Assembly (NCBI RefSeq): GCF_014874095.1
Contig: NZ_JADBEB010000001.1
Span: forward strand, 6,572,001-6,636,000
Reading direction: 5' to 3'
DNA: 64,000 nucleotides
Origin: Plantactinospora soyae
GTDB lineage: Bacteria; Actinomycetota; Actinomycetes; Mycobacteriales; Micromonosporaceae
The notes beneath the pieces were generated by a model. The model did not search any database and was not told the origin of the DNA. It was given only the letters and a program-made list of their open reading frames with translations. Below, piece by piece: positions 2,812 to 10,918 of this stretch (position 1 is the stretch's first letter; every line of letters starts with the position of its first letter). A program made the position numbers and the translations under genes.

Positions 2812-3672
2812 ATGCTCGGTGTCATGGCTACTACTTCCGGGACCGGGGTGGACCGGTGGGAGCGCCGGACGGCCGGCCTGCTGACGACGCTCGCCGTGCT
2901 GTTCATCGTGGCGTACGCGGTGCCCATCCTCCAGCCGGACCTGCCCCGGGGCTGGCGGGTGGCCTGCGAAGTGGCCGACGCGGCCATCTGGGCCCTGTTC
3001 GGCGTCGACTACCTCGTCCGGCTCGGGCTCAGCGTCGACCGCTGGCGATTCCTCCGGTCCCACCTCTTCGACCTCGCCGTACTGGTCCTGCCCGTGCTGC
3101 GACCGCTGCGGATGCTGCGCCTGGTGACCGCGCTGCTGGTGCTCAACCGTCGGACGGAGGTGTGGACCCGAGGCCGGTTGGCCGTCTACGTCGGCGCCAC
3201 CACCGTGCTGCTGGTCGGCGTCGGGGCCCTGGCGATCCTCGACGCCGAGCGGGGCAGCCCGGACGGCAACATCTCGAGCTACCCGGACGCGCTCTGGTGG
3301 GGCGTCGTCACCATCACCACCGTCGGGTACGGCGACTTCTATCCGACGACGGGCTCGGGTCGGCTGGTCGCGATGAGTCTGATGATCGGCGGGATCGGGC
3401 TGATCGGGTTCGTCACCGGGTCGCTGGCCACCTGGATCGTCGAGCGGATCTCCACCACCGAGAGTTCGACCGAGGCGACCAAGGCCGACGTGGCGGCCCT
3501 GCTGACGGAGATCCGACACCTGCGGGCCGAGGTGACTGCGCTGCGGCGGGCCGACGACGCCGGGGCCGATCAGGAGACGAGCAGCAGGGCGCCGACGGTG
3601 GCGGAGGTGCAGCAGACCGCCAGCACCAACCCGGTCGCCATGAACCTGCCCAGCGGCACCCGTACGCCGTAG
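2812..3672 (+). CDS. voltage-gated-type potassium channel
   Basis: A 286-residue Ion_trans/Ion_trans_2 family channel. Helices S1-S3 are visible at about residues 22-105, followed by an arginine-bearing S4-like stretch (LRPLRMLRLVTALLVLNRR), S5, the pore with selectivity filter TTVGYGDF, and S6. A C-terminal coiled coil (LLTEIRHLRAEVTALRR) follows. ATG 2812 and ATG 2824 are both possible and neither has a clear Shine-Dalgarno. The last 34 codons overlap, in antisense, the 3' end of the convergent permease gene. The tail after the coiled coil is low-complexity and could have arisen by loss of an earlier stop. Confidence 0.87.
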   Translation: MLGVMATTSGTGVDRWERRTAGLLTTLAVLFIVAYAVPILQPDLPRGWRVACEVADAAIWALFGVDYLVRLGLSVDRWRFLRSHLFDLAVLVLPVLRPLRMLRLVTALLVLNRRTEVWTRGRLAVYVGATTVLLVGVGALAILDAERGSPDGNISSYPDALWWGVVTITTVGYGDFYPTTGSGRLVAMSLMIGGIGLIGFVTGSLATWIVERISTTESSTEATKADVAALLTEIRHLRAEVTALRRADDAGADQETSSRAPTVAEVQQTASTNPVAMNLPSGTRTP

Positions 3673-4832
3673 GCGGCGCAGCGCTCGTACCAGATCAGGG
3701 TCGCCAGCGAGGCCCACGGGGTGGCCAGCGGACCGACGTTGGTGCCGATCAGCAGCGCGAGCAACTGGGTGTGGTTGGCCACCGGCACCACGGCCTCACC
3801 GGCGAGGTACGCGGGGAGGTTGTTCACCACGTTGGACAGGACCGCACCGGTGGCACCGGCCCGGAAGGCGCCGGTCGTGCCGGGGTCCGTACCGACCAGC
3901 GCGCCGACCAGGTCGTCCAGCCCGTACCGGCCGACCGTCTGGAGCACCAGGAACAGGCCGGTGACGAAGACCAGCAGCCGCCACGGAACCAGGGCCAGGG
4001 TCAGCCGCTCGCGGGCGCGTACCGCGAAGCCCACGATGACGATGGCGGCGGCCACCGCCGAGGCGAGCCCGATCTCCACCCCGAACAGGATGCCGGCGAC
4101 GAAGAGCAGACAGGCCGCGAAGGCCGTACGGTAGAGCACCCGGTCGGCCGGGGGCTGTGGCGTCGGCGGCTCGAACCGGTCGGCCCCGCGCTGCCCCCGC
4201 CGCCAGTACCAGATCCACAGCGCGGCCATGGTGACCGTGATCGCGACGAGTTGGGGCAGCCACATCCGGCCGGCGAACGGTACCGGCTCCAGATCGACCC
4301 GCCCGGCGGCGAGAATGTTCGTCAGGTTCGACACCGGGAGCAGCAGGCTCGCCGTGTTGGCCAGCCAGACAGTGGTCATCGCCAGCGGCAGCGCCGGGAT
4401 GCCCAGCCGGGCGGCCAACGCCAGCATCACCGGGGTGAGCAGCACGGCCGTGGTGTCGAGGTTCAGCGCGATCGTGGTGACCGACGCGAAGAGCACGCAG
4501 AGCAGGAAGAGCGCCAGGTAGCTGCCCCGGGCGACGCTGGCCAGGCGACCGGCGATCACGTCGAACACCCCGGCGGTGGCGGTCAGCTCGGCCACGATCA
4601 CGATCGTGCCGAGGAAGAGCAGGATCGGCATGATCCTGCCCATCGTGTCGTCCGCCTCCGGCGCCGGCAGCAGACCGGTCAGGACGCAGATCAGCCCGAC
4701 GGCCAGCAGCCCGACCGAGATCCAGTCGAGCACGCCGAGCCGGCCCAGCCACCGCCGCCACCTCGGGCCACCGTCGTTCGTCGGCGGAGTTTCGGCGGCG
4801 GCGAGCGGTGTGCCGCCGTTCGTCGCGGGCAT
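3570..4832 (-). CDS. ArsB/SLC13-type anion permease
   Basis: A 420-residue integral membrane protein of the ion transporter superfamily (ArsB/NhaD/CitM type), with about 11 hydrophobic helices. Features are the NLDTTAVLLTPVM segment in the first half, and LSNVVNNLPAYLAG with GTNVGPLATPWASLATL in the second half, the paired hairpin motifs of ArsB-like permeases. An upstream GTG at 4955 would add a Ser/Pro/Gly-rich extension; ATG 4832 gives the usual family length, so I prefer it. No ars regulator or reductase is adjacent, so arsenite specificity is not supported. The 3' end overlaps the K+ channel gene by 103 bp. Confidence 0.82.
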   Translation of the reverse strand: MPATNGGTPLAAAETPPTNDGGPRWRRWLGRLGVLDWISVGLLAVGLICVLTGLLPAPEADDTMGRIMPILLFLGTIVIVAELTATAGVFDVIAGRLASVARGSYLALFLLCVLFASVTTIALNLDTTAVLLTPVMLALAARLGIPALPLAMTTVWLANTASLLLPVSNLTNILAAGRVDLEPVPFAGRMWLPQLVAITVTMAALWIWYWRRGQRGADRFEPPTPQPPADRVLYRTAFAACLLFVAGILFGVEIGLASAVAAAIVIVGFAVRARERLTLALVPWRLLVFVTGLFLVLQTVGRYGLDDLVGALVGTDPGTTGAFRAGATGAVLSNVVNNLPAYLAGEAVVPVANHTQLLALLIGTNVGPLATPWASLATLIWYERCAAYGVRVPLGRFMATGLVLAVCCTSATVGALLLVS

Positions 4833-5031
4833 CGTGGCGGCGGAGCCGGCACTTCCGGGTGACGCGGGCGGGCCGCCGGACGGTCTCGACTGGCGGCGGC
4901 TGGCGGAGGGGGGCGGGCTGCCCGGATCGATGCCCACAGGGCAGGATCTTCGCACACGGCGCCACCGGGGACCGACGGCCGATCACGATGTGCCGGTCGC
5001 GGCGGTACGGGAGGAGAGCCCTCGGCCGGCA

Positions 5032-5037
5032 TACTGT
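5032..5037 (+). promoter_or_regulatory. -10 element TACTGT, probably leaderless
   Basis: TACTGT matches the actinobacterial TAnnnT -10 consensus and ends four bases before the GTG at 5042. No Shine-Dalgarno precedes that GTG at normal spacing, so a leaderless transcript is likely. GTG 5054 is an alternative start with a weak GGTAGG upstream. Confidence 0.4.
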
Positions 5038-5041
5038 CCGG

Positions 5042-8000
5042 GTGGTAGGTCGCGTGCAGCCAGTCCGGGCCGAGCGGTCCATCGATTTCTTCATCAGCTA
5101 CTCCCCGGCGGACGAGCGCTGGGCGACCTGGCTCGCCTGGGAGTTCGAGGCGGCCGGCTACCGGACAATGTTGCAGGCCTGGGACTTCGTGCCCGGCACC
5201 AACTTCATCGACTTCATGGACCGGGGTGTCCGGGAGGCGGCCGTGGTCGTCGCCGTCCTCTCCGAACGCTACCTGCGGTCCACCTACGGCAAGCTGGAGT
5301 GGCAGGCCGCGCTGCGGGCCGACCCGACCGGCACCGGCAACAAGCTGGTGACCGTCCGGATCGAGGACTGTCCACTGGACGGGCTGCTGGCCACCATCAC
5401 CTACGTGGACCTCGTCGGTGTCGCCGATCCCGCCCAGGCCCGGTCCCGGGTGCTGGACCGGATCCGGCAGGCACTCGACGGTCGGGCCAAGCCGGACCAG
5501 CAGCCGGTCTTCCCGCAGCCCCGGTCGGCGACCACCGGGCCCGGCCAACTGCCGGAGCCGGTCGCGGCCGGCCTCGGCCGCCGACCACGGTCCCGGCGTA
5601 CGCCGATCAACCCGCCGCAGTTCCCGCCGGCCGCCGGCTCCGGACCGGGTACCCGGAACGCGCTGACCGTGCTCCAGGTGGCCGGACCCCGCTTCGGCCG
5701 GGGAGTGATCGAGCCCGGGGCCCCGGTCACCCCCGGCGAGCTGCAAGAGAACATCATGGGCGAACTGACCCTGCTGATGAACGACGGAGTGCCCCGGCCC
5801 GACCTGATCGTGGTGGCCGGCAACCTCACCGAGTCGGGGAGCGCCCGGGAGTTCGAGGATGCGCTGAGCTTCCTCACCGGACTGCGGGTACTGGTCGGAC
5901 TGGAGCCGCACCGGCTGGTGGTGGTCCCCGGGGCCCGGGACATCACCCGGGCCGCGAGTCGGGCCTACTTCGCCACCTGCGAGGCCGACGACATCGACCC
6001 GCAGCCGCCGTACTGGCCGAAGTGGCGGCACTATGCCCGGCTGTTCGACGAGATCTACCAGGGGCTGGAAGAACCGATCTTCGACAGCGAACAACCCTGG
6101 ACCCTGTACGCCGTACCGGACCTGCAGGTGGTGGTGGCGGGGCTCAACTCCACCATCGCGGACAGTCACCGCGACGAGGACCACTACGGACACCTCGGCG
6201 AGGCCCAGGCGAGCTGGTTCGCCCAGTGGCTGCGGCCGTACCAGCAGACCGGCTGGCTCCGGCTCGGGGTGATGGCGCACGACCCCGGCGAAGCCGGCCC
6301 GTACGCCGGAGGCCTGCTCACCGGCCCGGAGTCGCCGCTGCGTGACGGCGGCACCTTCGGCCGACTGGTCGCCCCGATGCTGAACCTGCTGATGTCCGGG
6401 GCCGCGCCGTCCGGCGGGGTGACCGACCCGGCGGGGCCGGTCGCGCCGCCCGTGACCGACGGACGCGCCCAGGTGCTCCGCCTCGGCCCGACCGGCCTGA
6501 CCCGCTGGGTGCTCGGCCGGCACGACCGGTACGACGCCGGCGAGGAGATCCCGCGCCGCTGGTCCCGGGTCGAGGCGACCTTCGGCACCACCGGTCCGGC
6601 CCAGGTGCCCGGCCAGCGGGTGTCGGGGCTCGACGAGGGCCCGGCCCAGGGTTCCGGGTCGACCGGTCCGGGTCAGGGCATCGACGACCGGGTGGAGTTC
6701 GGGACCGACGGCCCGGACCAGCGGCCCGACCCGGTCGAGGAACTGCTCGACCGGCTGGCCGAGGTCTGCGAGGCGCGGCACGACCGGGTGTTGATCCGGC
6801 GGGTCGGCGGGCAGCGGACCGGGGGACAGCCGAACGGCGAGGGCGCGGGTGGGCTGCCGCACCTGTTCCTCACCTACCGCGAGGACGGGGTGGTCCGGCA
6901 GCAGCGGGTCGGGGTGAGCCTCGGCCAGCCGAGCCCGGCCGAGGTCGACGCGTTCGCCCGGCGGGTGCACGCCGCCAACCCGGAGATCGGTTCGGAGCTG
7001 GTCTACGACGGCCCCCGGCTGCCCCGCGCCCAGTACGACGACGCGCTGCGCCGGGGTGTCCGGGTGCTCAACCTGACCGAGTTCCAGGGCCTGCTGGACC
7101 TGCGTGACTACGTCGCGACGCAGACCGCGCGGTTGCAGGCCGACCAGCTCTACCCACCCGGCCTGTACGTGCCGCAGCGTTACCGCCACCTGGTCGGCGG
7201 GGAGCAGGGCGTCCAGGAGGACGTGGTCGAGGAACTGCTGCGGATGATGACCGCCCCGGACGGCCGGTTCGCCCTGGTGCTCGGCGACTTCGGCCGGGGC
7301 AAGACGTTCGCCATGCGCGAGCTGGCCCGGCGGCTGCCGACCGCCGCGCCGGACCTGATCCCGATCCTGGTGGAGCTGCGGGCCCTGGACAAGGCGCACT
7401 CGGTCGACGGGCTGGTCGCCGCCCACCTGGCCAACCACGGCGAGCAGGTGATCGACCTCAAGGCGTTCCGGTTCATGCTCCGGCAGGGGCGGATCGTGCT
7501 GCTCTTCGACGGCTTCGACGAGCTGGTCGCCCGGGTCACCTACGATCGCGCGGCGGACCATCTGGAGGCGCTGCTCCAGGCCGCCGACGGCAACGCCAAG
7601 GTCGTGGTCAGCAGCCGTACCCAGCACTTCAAGACCAATTCGCAGGTGCTCACCGCTCTCGGCGAGCGGGTCGGGCTGCTGCCGCACCGCCGGGTGCTCA
7701 ACATCGAGGACTTCACCCCGGGGCAGATCCGTACCTACCTGCGGCACCGGTACGGCGGCGACGAGCAGGCCGCGCAGGACCGGATGGACCTGCTGCGCGG
7801 CGTACAGGACCTGCTCGGGCTCTCCCGCAATCCCCGGATGCTCGGCTTCATCGCCAACCTGGACGACCGCCGGCTCGCGGCGGTGGCCGGTACGAGCGCC
7901 ACGTTCAGCGCGGCGGCGCTGTACCGGGAGATCCTCCAGTCCTGGCTCGACTTCGAGGAACGGCGGACCCAGGGGGTGCCGGGTGCACCGGTCAGCCTCG

Positions 8001-10918
8001 GTCAGACGGAGCTCTGGATCGCGGTGACCCGGCTCGCCCTGCGGCTCTGGGAGAGCGGTGAGTCCTACCTGCGGCTGGCGGAGATCGCGGAGGTCGCCGA
8101 GACCCTGACCGACCTGGCCGAGTTCCGGCTGTCCCGGCAGCAGGCGGCGCACGCGGTGGGCGCGGGCAGCCTGCTGGTCCGTACCGACGAGGGGTTGTTC
8201 GGCTTCATCCACGCCTCGGTGGTGGAGTGGCTCGTCGCGAACGACCTGGCCGAGCGACTGAATCGGGGCGAGTCGCCGCAGGCCCTGACCCGCCGGCCGC
8301 TGTCCCAGCTCACCGTCGACTTCCTCTCCGATCTGGCGAACGCGGCGCGCTGCGAGCAGTGGGCCGGCCGGATCCTCGGCGACGAGACCGCCAACGAGAC
8401 GGCGCGGGCGAACGCGCTCCGGCTCAGCGCCCGGCTGCGGCTGCCGTCCCGGGCCGACCTGCGCGGGGCGTCGCTGCGCGGCGAGGACCTCTCACATCGG
8501 GAGCTGGCCGGCGCGGACCTGAGCGACGCGGACCTGGGCGACGCCCGGCTGGTCGCCACCAACCTGCGCGGGGCCAACCTGCGGGGTGCCCGGCTGGTCG
8601 GCGCCCGACTGGACCAGACCAACCTGGTCGACGCCGACCTGCGCGGCGCGGACCTGACCGGTGCCCGGTTCCTCCGGGCCGACCTGCGCGGGGTCGCGGT
8701 GCAGGGCAGCAGGTGGCACCGGGCCTCGTTGATCGACGTGGAGGCCGACCGGACGCTGCTGGTCGCCCCGGAACTGCGCGGCGCGGTGCTGGCGCCGGGC
8801 CGGCCGGTGGTGCCCGGGCTGGCCCCGCCGGCGGTCGGCGTCGCCTACGGCTTCGAGGTGGGACGCATCCCGGACCCGGTCGGGTACGGCCCGGACGGTA
8901 CGACGCTCGCGGTGGGCAGCGACGACGGCGGGGTGCTGATCTGTGACACCGCCTCGGGGCTGCCGGTCCGGACCCTGCAGGGGCACCGTGGCCGGGTGTA
9001 CCTGGTGGACTACGACATCGCCGGGCACCAGTTGGTGACCGCCTCGGCCGACCTGACGGTCCGGCTCTGGGACGCGGACCACGGTGACCTGCGGCACGTG
9101 CTGGAGGGCTTCCGGGACTGGGTCTGGCCGGTGACGGTGGACCGGTCCCGGGGGGCGCTGGCGGTCGGCGACGCGGCCGGCACGGTCCGGGTCTTCGACA
9201 CCGGCACCGCCGAGCCCCGCTACGAGTTGACCGGTCACGCCCCGCCGATCTGGACCGCCTCGTTCAGTCCGGACGGGACGCTGCTGGTGGTCGGGGACAG
9301 CGCCGGGGTGATCCGGGGTTGGGACCTGGGCACCGGTGCGCTGCGCTACGCCAGGCACGACCCGGAGGTCGGTTACCGGCTCCAGATCAGCCCGGACGGC
9401 GCCCTGCTCGCCGTCGCCGGGCAGGGCGGCAGGATCCGGCTCAGCGACACCGGTAGCGGGCAGGAGCGGTTGGTGCTGCGCGGGCACGAGGCGGACGTCT
9501 ACGCGCTGGACTTCGATCCGACCGGGGCGCTGCTGGCCTCCGGGGACATCCAGGGGTCCGTACGGCTCTGGGAACCGGCGACCGGCCGGGCGGTCCGTAC
9601 CCTCGCCCGGCAGACCGGGGCGATCTACAGCGTCCGGTTCAACGGTGCCGGTGAGACGCTGGCCGCCGCCTCCAGCGACGGTGGGGTGCGGCTGTGGGAC
9701 GTACCGACCGGACAACTCGGGCACGAGTTGAGCCGGCACCGGGGTTCGGTGTGGCCGGTCGCGTTCCATCCCACCGAGGACCAGTTGGTCACCAGCAGCA
9801 ACGACGGCACCACCCGGCTGTGGGACGTCCGCTCCGGCCAGTGCCAGCACACCCTGCGCGGACACGGCCGGCGGGTCACCTCGGTGGCGTTCCGGGAGGA
9901 CGGCTCGACGCTGGCCAGTTGCGGCAACGACGGTGTGGTCCGGTTGTGGGACCCGCGGGGCGGGCGCTGCGTCCGGCAGATCGCGGGTACGTCGGACCGG
10001 CTGATCTCCGCCGTCTTCTGCCCCGGTACGCCGATTCTCGCCGCCGCCAGCGGCGACGGTGGCGTGCACCTGTGGAATGTGGAGACCGGCGTCGACGAGC
10101 GGGAACTCGACGTGGACACCGACCACGTCTGGGCCGAGGCGTTCAGCCCGGACGGTGACGTGATGGCGACCGCCAACGACGACGACACGGTACGGCTGTG
10201 GTACCGCACCACGGGCCGGCAGATCGGCACGCTGAGCCCGCACCGGGGCCGGGTCCGCTCGGTCGCGTTCAGCCCGGACGGTACGACGATCGCGACCGGC
10301 TGCGACGACCGGCTGGTACGACTCTGGGACGCCGCGACCGGTACCTGCCGGCACAGCCTGGAGCAGCACACCGACCGGGTCTACGCGGTGGTGTTCAGTC
10401 CGGACGGTGGCCTGCTGGTCAGTGCGAGCAACGACGGCACGGCCGTGCTCTGGGACACCGTCACCGGTGCCCGGGTGCGGGTGTTCACCGAGCACACCGG
10501 CCGGCTCTGGTCAGCGGCGTTCAGTCCGGACGGCAAACTGCTGGCCACCGCCGGTGACGACCTGGCGATCCGGCTCTGGGACCCGCGTACCGGGCGTCGG
10601 CACGGCTCGCTGGGCGGGCACAGTCGACGGGTCTGGTCGGTGGCTTTCAGTCCGGACAGTACGCTCCTGGCCAGCGCCGCGGACGACGGCAGCGTACGGC
10701 TGTGGGACGTGGCCGACCCGGAGCACGCGCAGCCCCGGCTGACCCTGCTCGGCCTGCCGGACGGCTGGGCGGCGCTGAGCCCGGACGGGCGGTACAAGTT
10801 GGAAGGTGACGCCGCCGGCCAGTTCTGGCACACGATCGGCACCTGCCGGTTCGAGACCGGTGAACTCGACGCCTATCTCACCCAGGTTCGCCGGTTGCCG
10901 GCCGACGCACCCTTCTAG
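5042..10918 (+). CDS. TIR-NACHT-pentapeptide-WD40 STAND protein
   Basis: A single 1958-residue multidomain protein. (1) TIR domain, about residues 13-125, beginning IDFFISYSPADERW; the NADase glutamate appears kept as E86 in STYGKLEW. (2) A calcineurin-like phosphoesterase-shaped region, about 205-450, whose metal motifs are all altered: AGPRFG (214-219), AGNLT (259-263), PGARD (296-300), MAHDP (411-415). (3) A stretch at about 600-700 with a possible restriction-endonuclease-like fold. (4) NACHT NTPase with Walker A GDFGRGKT (748-755), Walker B LLFDGFDE (820-827) and sensor VVVSSRTQ. (5) Pentapeptide repeats, about 1138-1235. (6) About 15 WD40 units, about 1270-1905, then a conserved-looking tail (SPDGRYKLEGDAAGQFW). 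STAND proteins oligomerise when the sensor repeats detect a trigger; a TIR effector would then deplete NAD+. An antiphage role is an inference from architecture. It is transcribed alone. Confidence 0.85.
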   Translation: MVGRVQPVRAERSIDFFISYSPADERWATWLAWEFEAAGYRTMLQAWDFVPGTNFIDFMDRGVREAAVVVAVLSERYLRSTYGKLEWQAALRADPTGTGNKLVTVRIEDCPLDGLLATITYVDLVGVADPAQARSRVLDRIRQALDGRAKPDQQPVFPQPRSATTGPGQLPEPVAAGLGRRPRSRRTPINPPQFPPAAGSGPGTRNALTVLQVAGPRFGRGVIEPGAPVTPGELQENIMGELTLLMNDGVPRPDLIVVAGNLTESGSAREFEDALSFLTGLRVLVGLEPHRLVVVPGARDITRAASRAYFATCEADDIDPQPPYWPKWRHYARLFDEIYQGLEEPIFDSEQPWTLYAVPDLQVVVAGLNSTIADSHRDEDHYGHLGEAQASWFAQWLRPYQQTGWLRLGVMAHDPGEAGPYAGGLLTGPESPLRDGGTFGRLVAPMLNLLMSGAAPSGGVTDPAGPVAPPVTDGRAQVLRLGPTGLTRWVLGRHDRYDAGEEIPRRWSRVEATFGTTGPAQVPGQRVSGLDEGPAQGSGSTGPGQGIDDRVEFGTDGPDQRPDPVEELLDRLAEVCEARHDRVLIRRVGGQRTGGQPNGEGAGGLPHLFLTYREDGVVRQQRVGVSLGQPSPAEVDAFARRVHAANPEIGSELVYDGPRLPRAQYDDALRRGVRVLNLTEFQGLLDLRDYVATQTARLQADQLYPPGLYVPQRYRHLVGGEQGVQEDVVEELLRMMTAPDGRFALVLGDFGRGKTFAMRELARRLPTAAPDLIPILVELRALDKAHSVDGLVAAHLANHGEQVIDLKAFRFMLRQGRIVLLFDGFDELVARVTYDRAADHLEALLQAADGNAKVVVSSRTQHFKTNSQVLTALGERVGLLPHRRVLNIEDFTPGQIRTYLRHRYGGDEQAAQDRMDLLRGVQDLLGLSRNPRMLGFIANLDDRRLAAVAGTSATFSAAALYREILQSWLDFEERRTQGVPGAPVSLGQTELWIAVTRLALRLWESGESYLRLAEIAEVAETLTDLAEFRLSRQQAAHAVGAGSLLVRTDEGLFGFIHASVVEWLVANDLAERLNRGESPQALTRRPLSQLTVDFLSDLANAARCEQWAGRILGDETANETARANALRLSARLRLPSRADLRGASLRGEDLSHRELAGADLSDADLGDARLVATNLRGANLRGARLVGARLDQTNLVDADLRGADLTGARFLRADLRGVAVQGSRWHRASLIDVEADRTLLVAPELRGAVLAPGRPVVPGLAPPAVGVAYGFEVGRIPDPVGYGPDGTTLAVGSDDGGVLICDTASGLPVRTLQGHRGRVYLVDYDIAGHQLVTASADLTVRLWDADHGDLRHVLEGFRDWVWPVTVDRSRGALAVGDAAGTVRVFDTGTAEPRYELTGHAPPIWTASFSPDGTLLVVGDSAGVIRGWDLGTGALRYARHDPEVGYRLQISPDGALLAVAGQGGRIRLSDTGSGQERLVLRGHEADVYALDFDPTGALLASGDIQGSVRLWEPATGRAVRTLARQTGAIYSVRFNGAGETLAAASSDGGVRLWDVPTGQLGHELSRHRGSVWPVAFHPTEDQLVTSSNDGTTRLWDVRSGQCQHTLRGHGRRVTSVAFREDGSTLASCGNDGVVRLWDPRGGRCVRQIAGTSDRLISAVFCPGTPILAAASGDGGVHLWNVETGVDERELDVDTDHVWAEAFSPDGDVMATANDDDTVRLWYRTTGRQIGTLSPHRGRVRSVAFSPDGTTIATGCDDRLVRLWDAATGTCRHSLEQHTDRVYAVVFSPDGGLLVSASNDGTAVLWDTVTGARVRVFTEHTGRLWSAAFSPDGKLLATAGDDLAIRLWDPRTGRRHGSLGGHSRRVWSVAFSPDSTLLASAADDGSVRLWDVADPEHAQPRLTLLGLPDGWAALSPDGRYKLEGDAAGQFWHTIGTCRFETGELDAYLTQVRRLPADAPF

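Follow-up and report, generated by a model that had tools for sequence, protein, structure and literature searches.

A six-domain TIR-STAND protein of actinobacteria with two apparently inactive enzyme folds, an exchangeable head and recurring partner genes

We analysed a window of 64,000 nucleotides from Plantactinospora soyae (NZ_JADBEB010000001.1, positions 6,572,001 to 6,636,000) and observed a single STAND gene encoding six domains, in an order that recurs in other actinobacteria together with a set of partner genes. We give an even chance to the reading that this protein is an NLR-like immune or cell-death sensor-effector around which several further genes form a conflict cassette in actinobacteria. 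The protein itself is probably an NLR-like sensor that would detect a cue through its tail and act via an immune-type TIR head. An NLR-like TIR receptor would then be tied to recurring partner genes in filamentous actinobacteria, which leads to a prediction open to direct test: a receptor that needs other genes in order to act.

The STAND reading frame is open throughout from a GTG codon at 5042 to the stop at 10918, and its features are collected in Table 1. We favour this GTG as the start because of the CATACT hexamer ahead of it. Of 25 TIR-bearing homologues aligned, 20 keep the hexamer upstream of the gene as CATAAT or CATACT and five lack it. The spacing from hexamer to GTG in the window would fit a leaderless transcript, and a start at 5054, picked by the gene caller, is a possible alternative. 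Chance occurrence of the frame is excluded because the N-terminal 1,128 residues are conserved across lineages, with identities to the window protein of 96% in the same genus, 75-77% in Micromonospora, 69% in a MAG, 59-61% in Streptosporangiaceae and 50-53% in three further TIR-type rows.

Table 1. Positions in the window of the STAND gene, its domains and the divergent transporter gene
Feature	Position	Strand	Evidence
STAND gene product of 1958 aa with six domains (TIR - dead phosphoesterase - NA-iREase3 - NACHT - pentapeptide - WD40)	5042..10918	+	ORF, Pfam
CATACT, candidate -10 box	5030..5035	+	6 nt before GTG start; hexamer kept upstream in homologues
TIR domain (TIR_2), residues 16-133; E86 codon 5297-5299	5087..5440	+	Pfam, alignment
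Calcineurin-type phosphoesterase fold, residues ~204-500, metal motifs lost	5651..6541	+	NCBIfam, alignment, Foldseek
NA-iREase3 (NACHT-associated inactive restriction-endonuclease fold), residues 566-687	6737..7102	+	Pfam
NACHT NTPase module and helical part, residues ~720-1110; Walker A GDFGRGKT, Walker B LLFDGFDE	7199..8371	+	Pfam, alignment, model
Pentapeptide repeats, residues ~1136-1250	8447..8791	+	Pfam, NCBIfam
WD40 blades, n=15, residues ~1275-1891	8864..10714	+	Pfam, motif reading
ArsB/CitMHS-type transporter, divergent from STAND gene (start perhaps 4832)	3570..4955	-	Pfam, tblastn, gene calls

Residues 1-1270 were searched with Pfam for four of the domains and matched TIR_2 (117 bits, cut-off 28), NA-iREase3 (103 bits, cut-off 27), NACHT (residues 744-903, 36 bits, cut-off 26.7) and Pentapeptide (95 bits, cut-off 20.2), while WD40 matched at 358 bits (cut-off 27). 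The sequence-only reading of this DNA had named a TIR, an inactive phosphoesterase-like domain, a NACHT, pentapeptides and about 15 WD40 units in one frame; all five were borne out by the Pfam matches, a count of 15 blades and the loss of the metal motifs, but its list was incomplete, NA-iREase3 between phosphoesterase and NACHT having been missed. The TIR glutamate that it placed at E86 is present, and its STAND/NLR-like layout with an unbroken NACHT site agrees with the intact Walker motifs. The motifs GK[ST] and DG[FL]DE were found in each of the 36 NACHT-bearing rows of the alignment, and a model of residues 1-1128, of moderate quality (pLDDT 72.5, pTM 0.41), matched NOD2, NLRP3 and NLRC4 in a structure search.

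The WD40 third of the protein comprises 15 blades about 42 residues apart and a tail, a count read by hand from the motif list after dropping a false motif at 1813 and adding a first blade near residue 1300. Its length is steady: of 24 TIR-type rows, 23 fall within 699-742 aa, and the 818 aa of L099 are an artefact of where the sequence was cut. Many pathogen-facing sensors vary in length, unlike this part, and its steadiness counts against the immune reading. We considered a hypervariable sensor and rejected it, both length and identity of the WD40 part being steady within the TIR group. As judged from sequence and model, the NACHT and the C-terminal repeats have the makings of a STAND/NLR-like protein, with a putative sensing role for the repeats.

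Compared with the Micromonospora orthologues, the TIR is the best conserved domain (91-92% identity), followed by NACHT (81-83%), phosphoesterase (72-75%), WD40 (70-73%) and iREase (69-73%), with pentapeptides at 73-75% when row L099, shortened by a 1,330-aa limit, is excluded. The TIR glutamate is invariant in all 25 TIR-bearing rows. The best solved TIR matches by sequence in the PDB were TLR2 and MyD88, with a TLR-like DF[VI]PG loop. E86 alone proves little about NADase activity because a glutamate of TLR2, which we take to be a signalling scaffold without NADase activity, aligns to it. Four residues before the glutamate, where Trp is the usual letter, the rows have Tyr (22 of 25), Trp (2) or Asn (1). 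These matches, the Tyr and a co-occurring PLD-like-fold putative membrane protein all favour an immune reading in which the TIR would be a MyD88-like scaffold recruiting a partner, with the PLD-like protein or the transporter as executioner. We consider it distinctly unlikely, as the invariant glutamate argues against it and the sequence search may simply have missed the solved bacterial NADase TIRs. The PLD-like domain, moreover, has no clear HKD motif (the catalytic motif of PLD-type enzymes) on reading the alignment, and one TIR-bearing genome, G007, has no strong PLD-like match.

Behind the TIR lie two folds that we read as dead enzymes. Within the phosphoesterase region of the window protein Pfam gave no Metallophos match at E 0.05, and NF053862 (NCBIfam, an anti-phage phosphoesterase) matched weakly over residues 248-412, scoring 39 bits where the cut-off is 420. 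The region aligns with homologues that do match Metallophos, and Foldseek matched the model to Rv0805 with a TM-score of 0.70 when target-normalised and 0.16 when normalised to the 1,128-residue query. Calcineurin-type phosphoesterases carry the metal motifs DxH, GDxx, GNHD, H and GHxH; the window has GPR, GNL, GARD, a kept H and SGA at these positions. Among 37 aligned members, two have near-intact motifs (L023 and L028, with DxQ for DxH) and L076 has kept them in part; not one of the 25 rows with a TIR has them. The phosphoesterase of the TIR-STAND protein is predicted from these positions to be inactive, lacking what its active site requires. The NA-iREase3 family is itself named inactive, and two stretches inspected by eye showed no invariant acid-ExK pattern. 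That some homologues keep a near-intact phosphoesterase site and others have lost it makes the family well suited to the question of why dead enzymes are retained in immune-type proteins. Phosphoesterase motifs that look intact by reading were also observed in three other proteins (L031:4611-6983, L032:5977-8415 and L055:1177-3570), the first with TPR and Metallophos matches in Pfam; the N-terminal stretch of these proteins presumably resembles a nucleoside-deoxyribosyltransferase/TIR-like fold.

When the named genome collection was scanned, 22 loci were found, 17 of them from Micromonospora and the others from Plantactinospora alkalitolerans, Streptosporangium (two), Sinosporangium album and an Actinomycetota MAG. 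The six-domain order was observed in one reading frame in 20 of the 22; L085 has its TIR out of frame with the other domains and reaches its contig end in the pentapeptides, the L094 sequence starts only within the STAND gene, and the L095 sequence contains runs of N. The order is shared by Plantactinospora, Micromonospora, Streptosporangium and Sinosporangium, and by less closely related actinobacteria. The sequence-only reading had not known it as described, and we found no description of the domain order or the cassette in the open-licence PubMed Central literature, but the order is not unique to this genome. A sample of 298 genomes from the order gave any match to the STAND protein in 33, of which 15 (including the source genome) were strong and TIR-carrying. 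Among 61 relatives eight had a match and five the TIR (G000, G002, G007, G013, G042). Only two of seven genomes of the same genus had strong matches, and the distribution of the TIR-STAND protein is therefore patchy.

The head of the protein varies among homologues. A paralogue in the same genome (L023, 43% identical) begins with Trypsin_2, followed by Metallophos (49 bits), NA-iREase3 and NACHT in the same order after the head, with 37%, 35% and 49% identity to the window protein in the phosphoesterase, iREase and NACHT parts, respectively. Pfam found the Trypsin_2 head also in L029, L076 and L077 and an HTH_3 in L027; for the remaining trypsin-type rows, namely L028, L030, L078 and another gene of L029, the type was recognised from reading and alignment, and L075 has, by reading, an HTH-like stretch ahead of its TIR. 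In the NACHT tree a 100/99 branch separates 11 trypsin-type rows from 24 TIR rows and the HTH row. Since the head swaps and the later order is kept, the chassis is constant while the head changes, and the N-terminus behaves, as far as sequence tells, as an interchangeable putative effector (TIR, trypsin-like protease or HTH) on a fixed chassis. Locus L027 (7081-15865) is a natural split, in which a separate 499-aa TIR-phosphoesterase gene shares a single gene run with a methyltransferase, a cupin-like gene and an HTH-phosphoesterase-iREase3-NACHT-WD40 gene. Because both chains of this pair keep a phosphoesterase, that fold is suggested to be an adaptor. The series of TIR, protease and HTH forms, natural split included, shows NLR effector change with the sensor kept. 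We also observed trypsin-headed phosphoesterase-NACHT genes in tandem (two copies in L029, three in L030, two in L078). Weak matches to the NACHT part were also seen at two other places in the source genome (G000:C1:1580100 and 8539264; L003 and L004).

Searching for homologues and their neighbourhoods, a check that the sequence-only reading had proposed, recovered the same order elsewhere and showed partner genes recurring around the TIR-type loci. Across lineages these encode an inositol-phosphatase-family enzyme, a cupin-like protein and a PLD-like putative membrane protein, joined in several lineages by a methyltransferase. In the source genome the methyltransferase, PLD-like, cupin-like and phosphatase genes form an operon at 6564457-6567948, about 9 kb upstream of the STAND gene and outside the window. 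A Nonomuraea record carries PLD-like, cupin-like, phosphatase, transporter and TIR-STAND genes in a row, with no methyltransferase match. Neither the cupin-like nor the PLD-like protein matched any Pfam or PADLOC family, and a PDB search with the cupin-like alignment returned no matches; the cupin-like protein had one weak PHROG match (24 bits), to a PHROG of unknown function. The label cupin-like comes from reading HxH and GxxYxLxAGxFH, which we take to be cupin motifs. The PLD-like protein is called a membrane protein from two hydrophobic N-terminal stretches read by eye; its soluble part has E. coli phosphatidylserine synthase as a match, with a best E of 4.6e-4, and phospholipases D as weaker ones (E at least 0.02), and residues 1-105 of its model are mostly below 50 pLDDT. 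The phosphatase keeps [ST]DxD, EE and DPLDGTNN in 12 of 12 sequences and VDxPxG in 10 of 12, presumably the metal motifs of the inositol-phosphatase family. In L074 and L075 the cassette also includes a HAD-type hydrolase (identified by Pfam in the L075 copy), a further protein whose N-terminus has hydrophobic stretches, and a gene without a Pfam match that reads like a 2H phosphoesterase, an identity that we assume from its motif.

Strong matches to the cupin-like profile (E<1e-90) fell in 15 of the 298 genomes, precisely those with the TIR form. This count ignores relatedness and does not stand for 15 independent events, 11 of the genomes being of one genus. Fifteen other genomes had weaker matches, the best at 4e-47 (G279). 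Two candidates per genome were scored for STAND and ten for the cupin-like protein, so misses are possible, and two 298-genome draws were taken as one set from their matching sizes and handles. The order sample spans three families, to which the Streptosporangiaceae loci add a fourth. Strong cupin-like matches among the 61 relatives were exactly the five with the TIR-phosphoesterase, with two weak others. Strong PLD-like matches occurred in four of these five, the exception being the split genome G007, with a weaker one in G049; a phylum sample of 396 genomes had PLD-like matches in two, the source genome and one weak match.

That the STAND protein is a self-contained, single-gene abortive-infection protein, with the linked genes as passengers, is highly improbable in our view. 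All NLR modules do lie on one chain, and single bacterial NACHT proteins protect from phage according to the available part of one paper (PMC12169576). The genome sets of the cupin-like and STAND genes nevertheless match in two samples despite distances of about 3 to 30 kb in several genomes (they are on different contigs in draft genome G002 and in G117), and the cassette order recurs in several lineages, Streptosporangium, Nonomuraea and a MAG among them. The sequence-only reading had called the protein self-contained and its system one-gene, which is not supported, strong matches to the cupin-like gene falling in exactly the TIR-form genomes and the transporter lying beside or near the STAND gene in nearly every TIR-type locus.

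By tblastn the transporter was observed in all 29 TIR-type loci (28 distinct contigs, L025 and L093 being one), usually as the next gene; L085 holds it, the L094 sequence, starting within the STAND gene, does not extend to its position, one gene intervenes in L074 and L075, and in L026 it lies about 3.9 kb off on the same strand. The same search found it in none of seven trypsin-type loci and not near split locus L027, and the split genome G007 has it elsewhere. The stretch between STAND gene and transporter is about 83-119 bp in most loci with both starts called, the genes of fetched loci being called by a home-made codon model with approximate starts. In some loci the transporter escaped this caller but not tblastn. 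The transporter is no diagnostic marker, matches of some kind occurring in 43 of the 61 relatives; within the genus a close match was found only in the two TIR-form genomes. A cassette-only transporter was rejected, 12 loci carrying it without a STAND gene (nine with unrelated neighbours and three beside a WD40-KAP NTPase). In a tree 20 cassette transporters fall in a 99/96 branch, with two solo ones inside. Three other genomes have a ~1,280-aa protein divergent beside the same transporter type (L112:2898-6740, L114:8502-12335, L115:2945-6766). The L112 copy has WD40 and KAP-NTPase domains (Pfam), and the transporter therefore pairs with two unrelated kinds of WD40-NTPase protein.

The strongest of the rivals, and a serious one, is a non-immune regulator, in which a STAND switch would sense a metabolite or cell-surface state and control the divergent transporter and the linked operon, in the manner of STAND transcription regulators. 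The divergent arrangement with its short shared intergenic stretch fits this reading, as do the phosphatase, methyltransferase and transporter, whose partly metabolic look counts against an immune cassette. The HTH variants (L027 by Pfam, L075 by reading) likewise suggest regulation, and the orthologues cluster by genus in the NACHT tree. Only one of 11 matching records in the plasmid collection covers at least 80% of the query, and this is an 11.85-Mb Nonomuraea record. Of ten flanking genes searched with PADLOC at E 1e-5, just two had matches: a Ser/Thr kinase gene, to 34 families (mostly PD-T4-6), and an ABC ATPase gene, to four (best mad3). We read these matches as family-level resemblance, and the flanks appear to hold no recognisable defence island. 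Against regulation, Pfam found no DNA-binding domain in residues 1-1270 of the window protein, and the swap from TIR to protease, with the TIR the best conserved domain, fits an enzymatic output better than transcription control. On balance we find the regulator unlikely.

Returning to the NLR-like sensor-effector, domain order, motif states, effector interchange, co-occurrence and conserved neighbourhood were observed directly, and from them we infer the functional steps that follow. The 15-blade WD40 tail with the pentapeptides would bind a cue, upon which the NACHT module would swap ATP and oligomerise, clustering the N-terminal TIR domains. Clustered TIRs would then consume NAD(P)+ or make an ADP-ribose-type signal, leading to growth stop or cell death. 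The apparently dead phosphoesterase and NA-iREase3 folds may serve as structural or ligand-binding adaptors, and the anion-type transporter and the PLD-like, cupin-like, inositol-phosphatase-family and often methyltransferase partners may set, limit or execute the response. A more specific version is tentative and, to us, rather unlikely: five or six genes would make up an immune cassette, with the TIR-STAND protein gated by its dead nucleotide-handling folds. The TIR product would have the co-inherited PLD-like protein as its target or mediator, and the inositol-phosphatase-family enzyme would reset this product. Within that version, the motifs near-intact in two protease-headed homologues suggest that the phosphoesterase is a formerly active cyclic-nucleotide-type phosphodiesterase turned nucleotide-binding latch, and split locus L027 suggests instead an adaptor pairing the TIR-phosphoesterase with the NACHT-phosphoesterase chain.

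Among known systems, STAND or repeat proteins with TIR, trypsin or calcineurin-like domains are described as putative conflict systems in the available parts of three papers (PMC7159879, PMC8195603, PMC10907252). As far as those parts go, the NTP-dependent conflict systems of PMC7159879 and the TRADD-N proteins of PMC8195603 likewise reuse inactive enzyme domains in multicellular bacteria and combine interchangeable TIR, trypsin or calcineurin-like effectors with STAND/repeat modules; they differ in that no MoxR-vWA, GTPase or TRADD-N component was found among our genes run through Pfam. The words 'inositol', 'cupin' and 'methyltransferase' do not occur in the main text of PMC7159879. Thoeris, SpbK and TIR-APAZ, in the descriptions available, share with the window protein a TIR with a conserved glutamate, which here is fused to a NACHT-WD40 protein. 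No ThsA-like gene was found among the cassette genes (Pfam) or the ten window neighbours (PADLOC), and the PADLOC bSEFIR and TIR models match the STAND protein at only 15.7-33.2 bits. EruA (NCBIfam) matches it at 27 bits against a cut-off of 1000, and none of the six PADLOC families that matched it at E 0.01 was an Avs model. Proteins of matching layout behind the head (Trypsin_2 - Metallophos - NA-iREase3 - NACHT - pentapeptide - WD40, as in L023) differ in their protease head, in the near-intact metal motifs of L023 and L028, and in having no such transporter near the seven loci tested. With bNACHT and Avs/AVAST the window protein shares the common tripartite STAND layout of N-terminal effector, central NTPase and C-terminal repeats, its NACHT motifs being intact, and it differs from them in that its putative effector is a TIR placed ahead of two apparently dead enzyme folds and accompanied by recurring partner genes.
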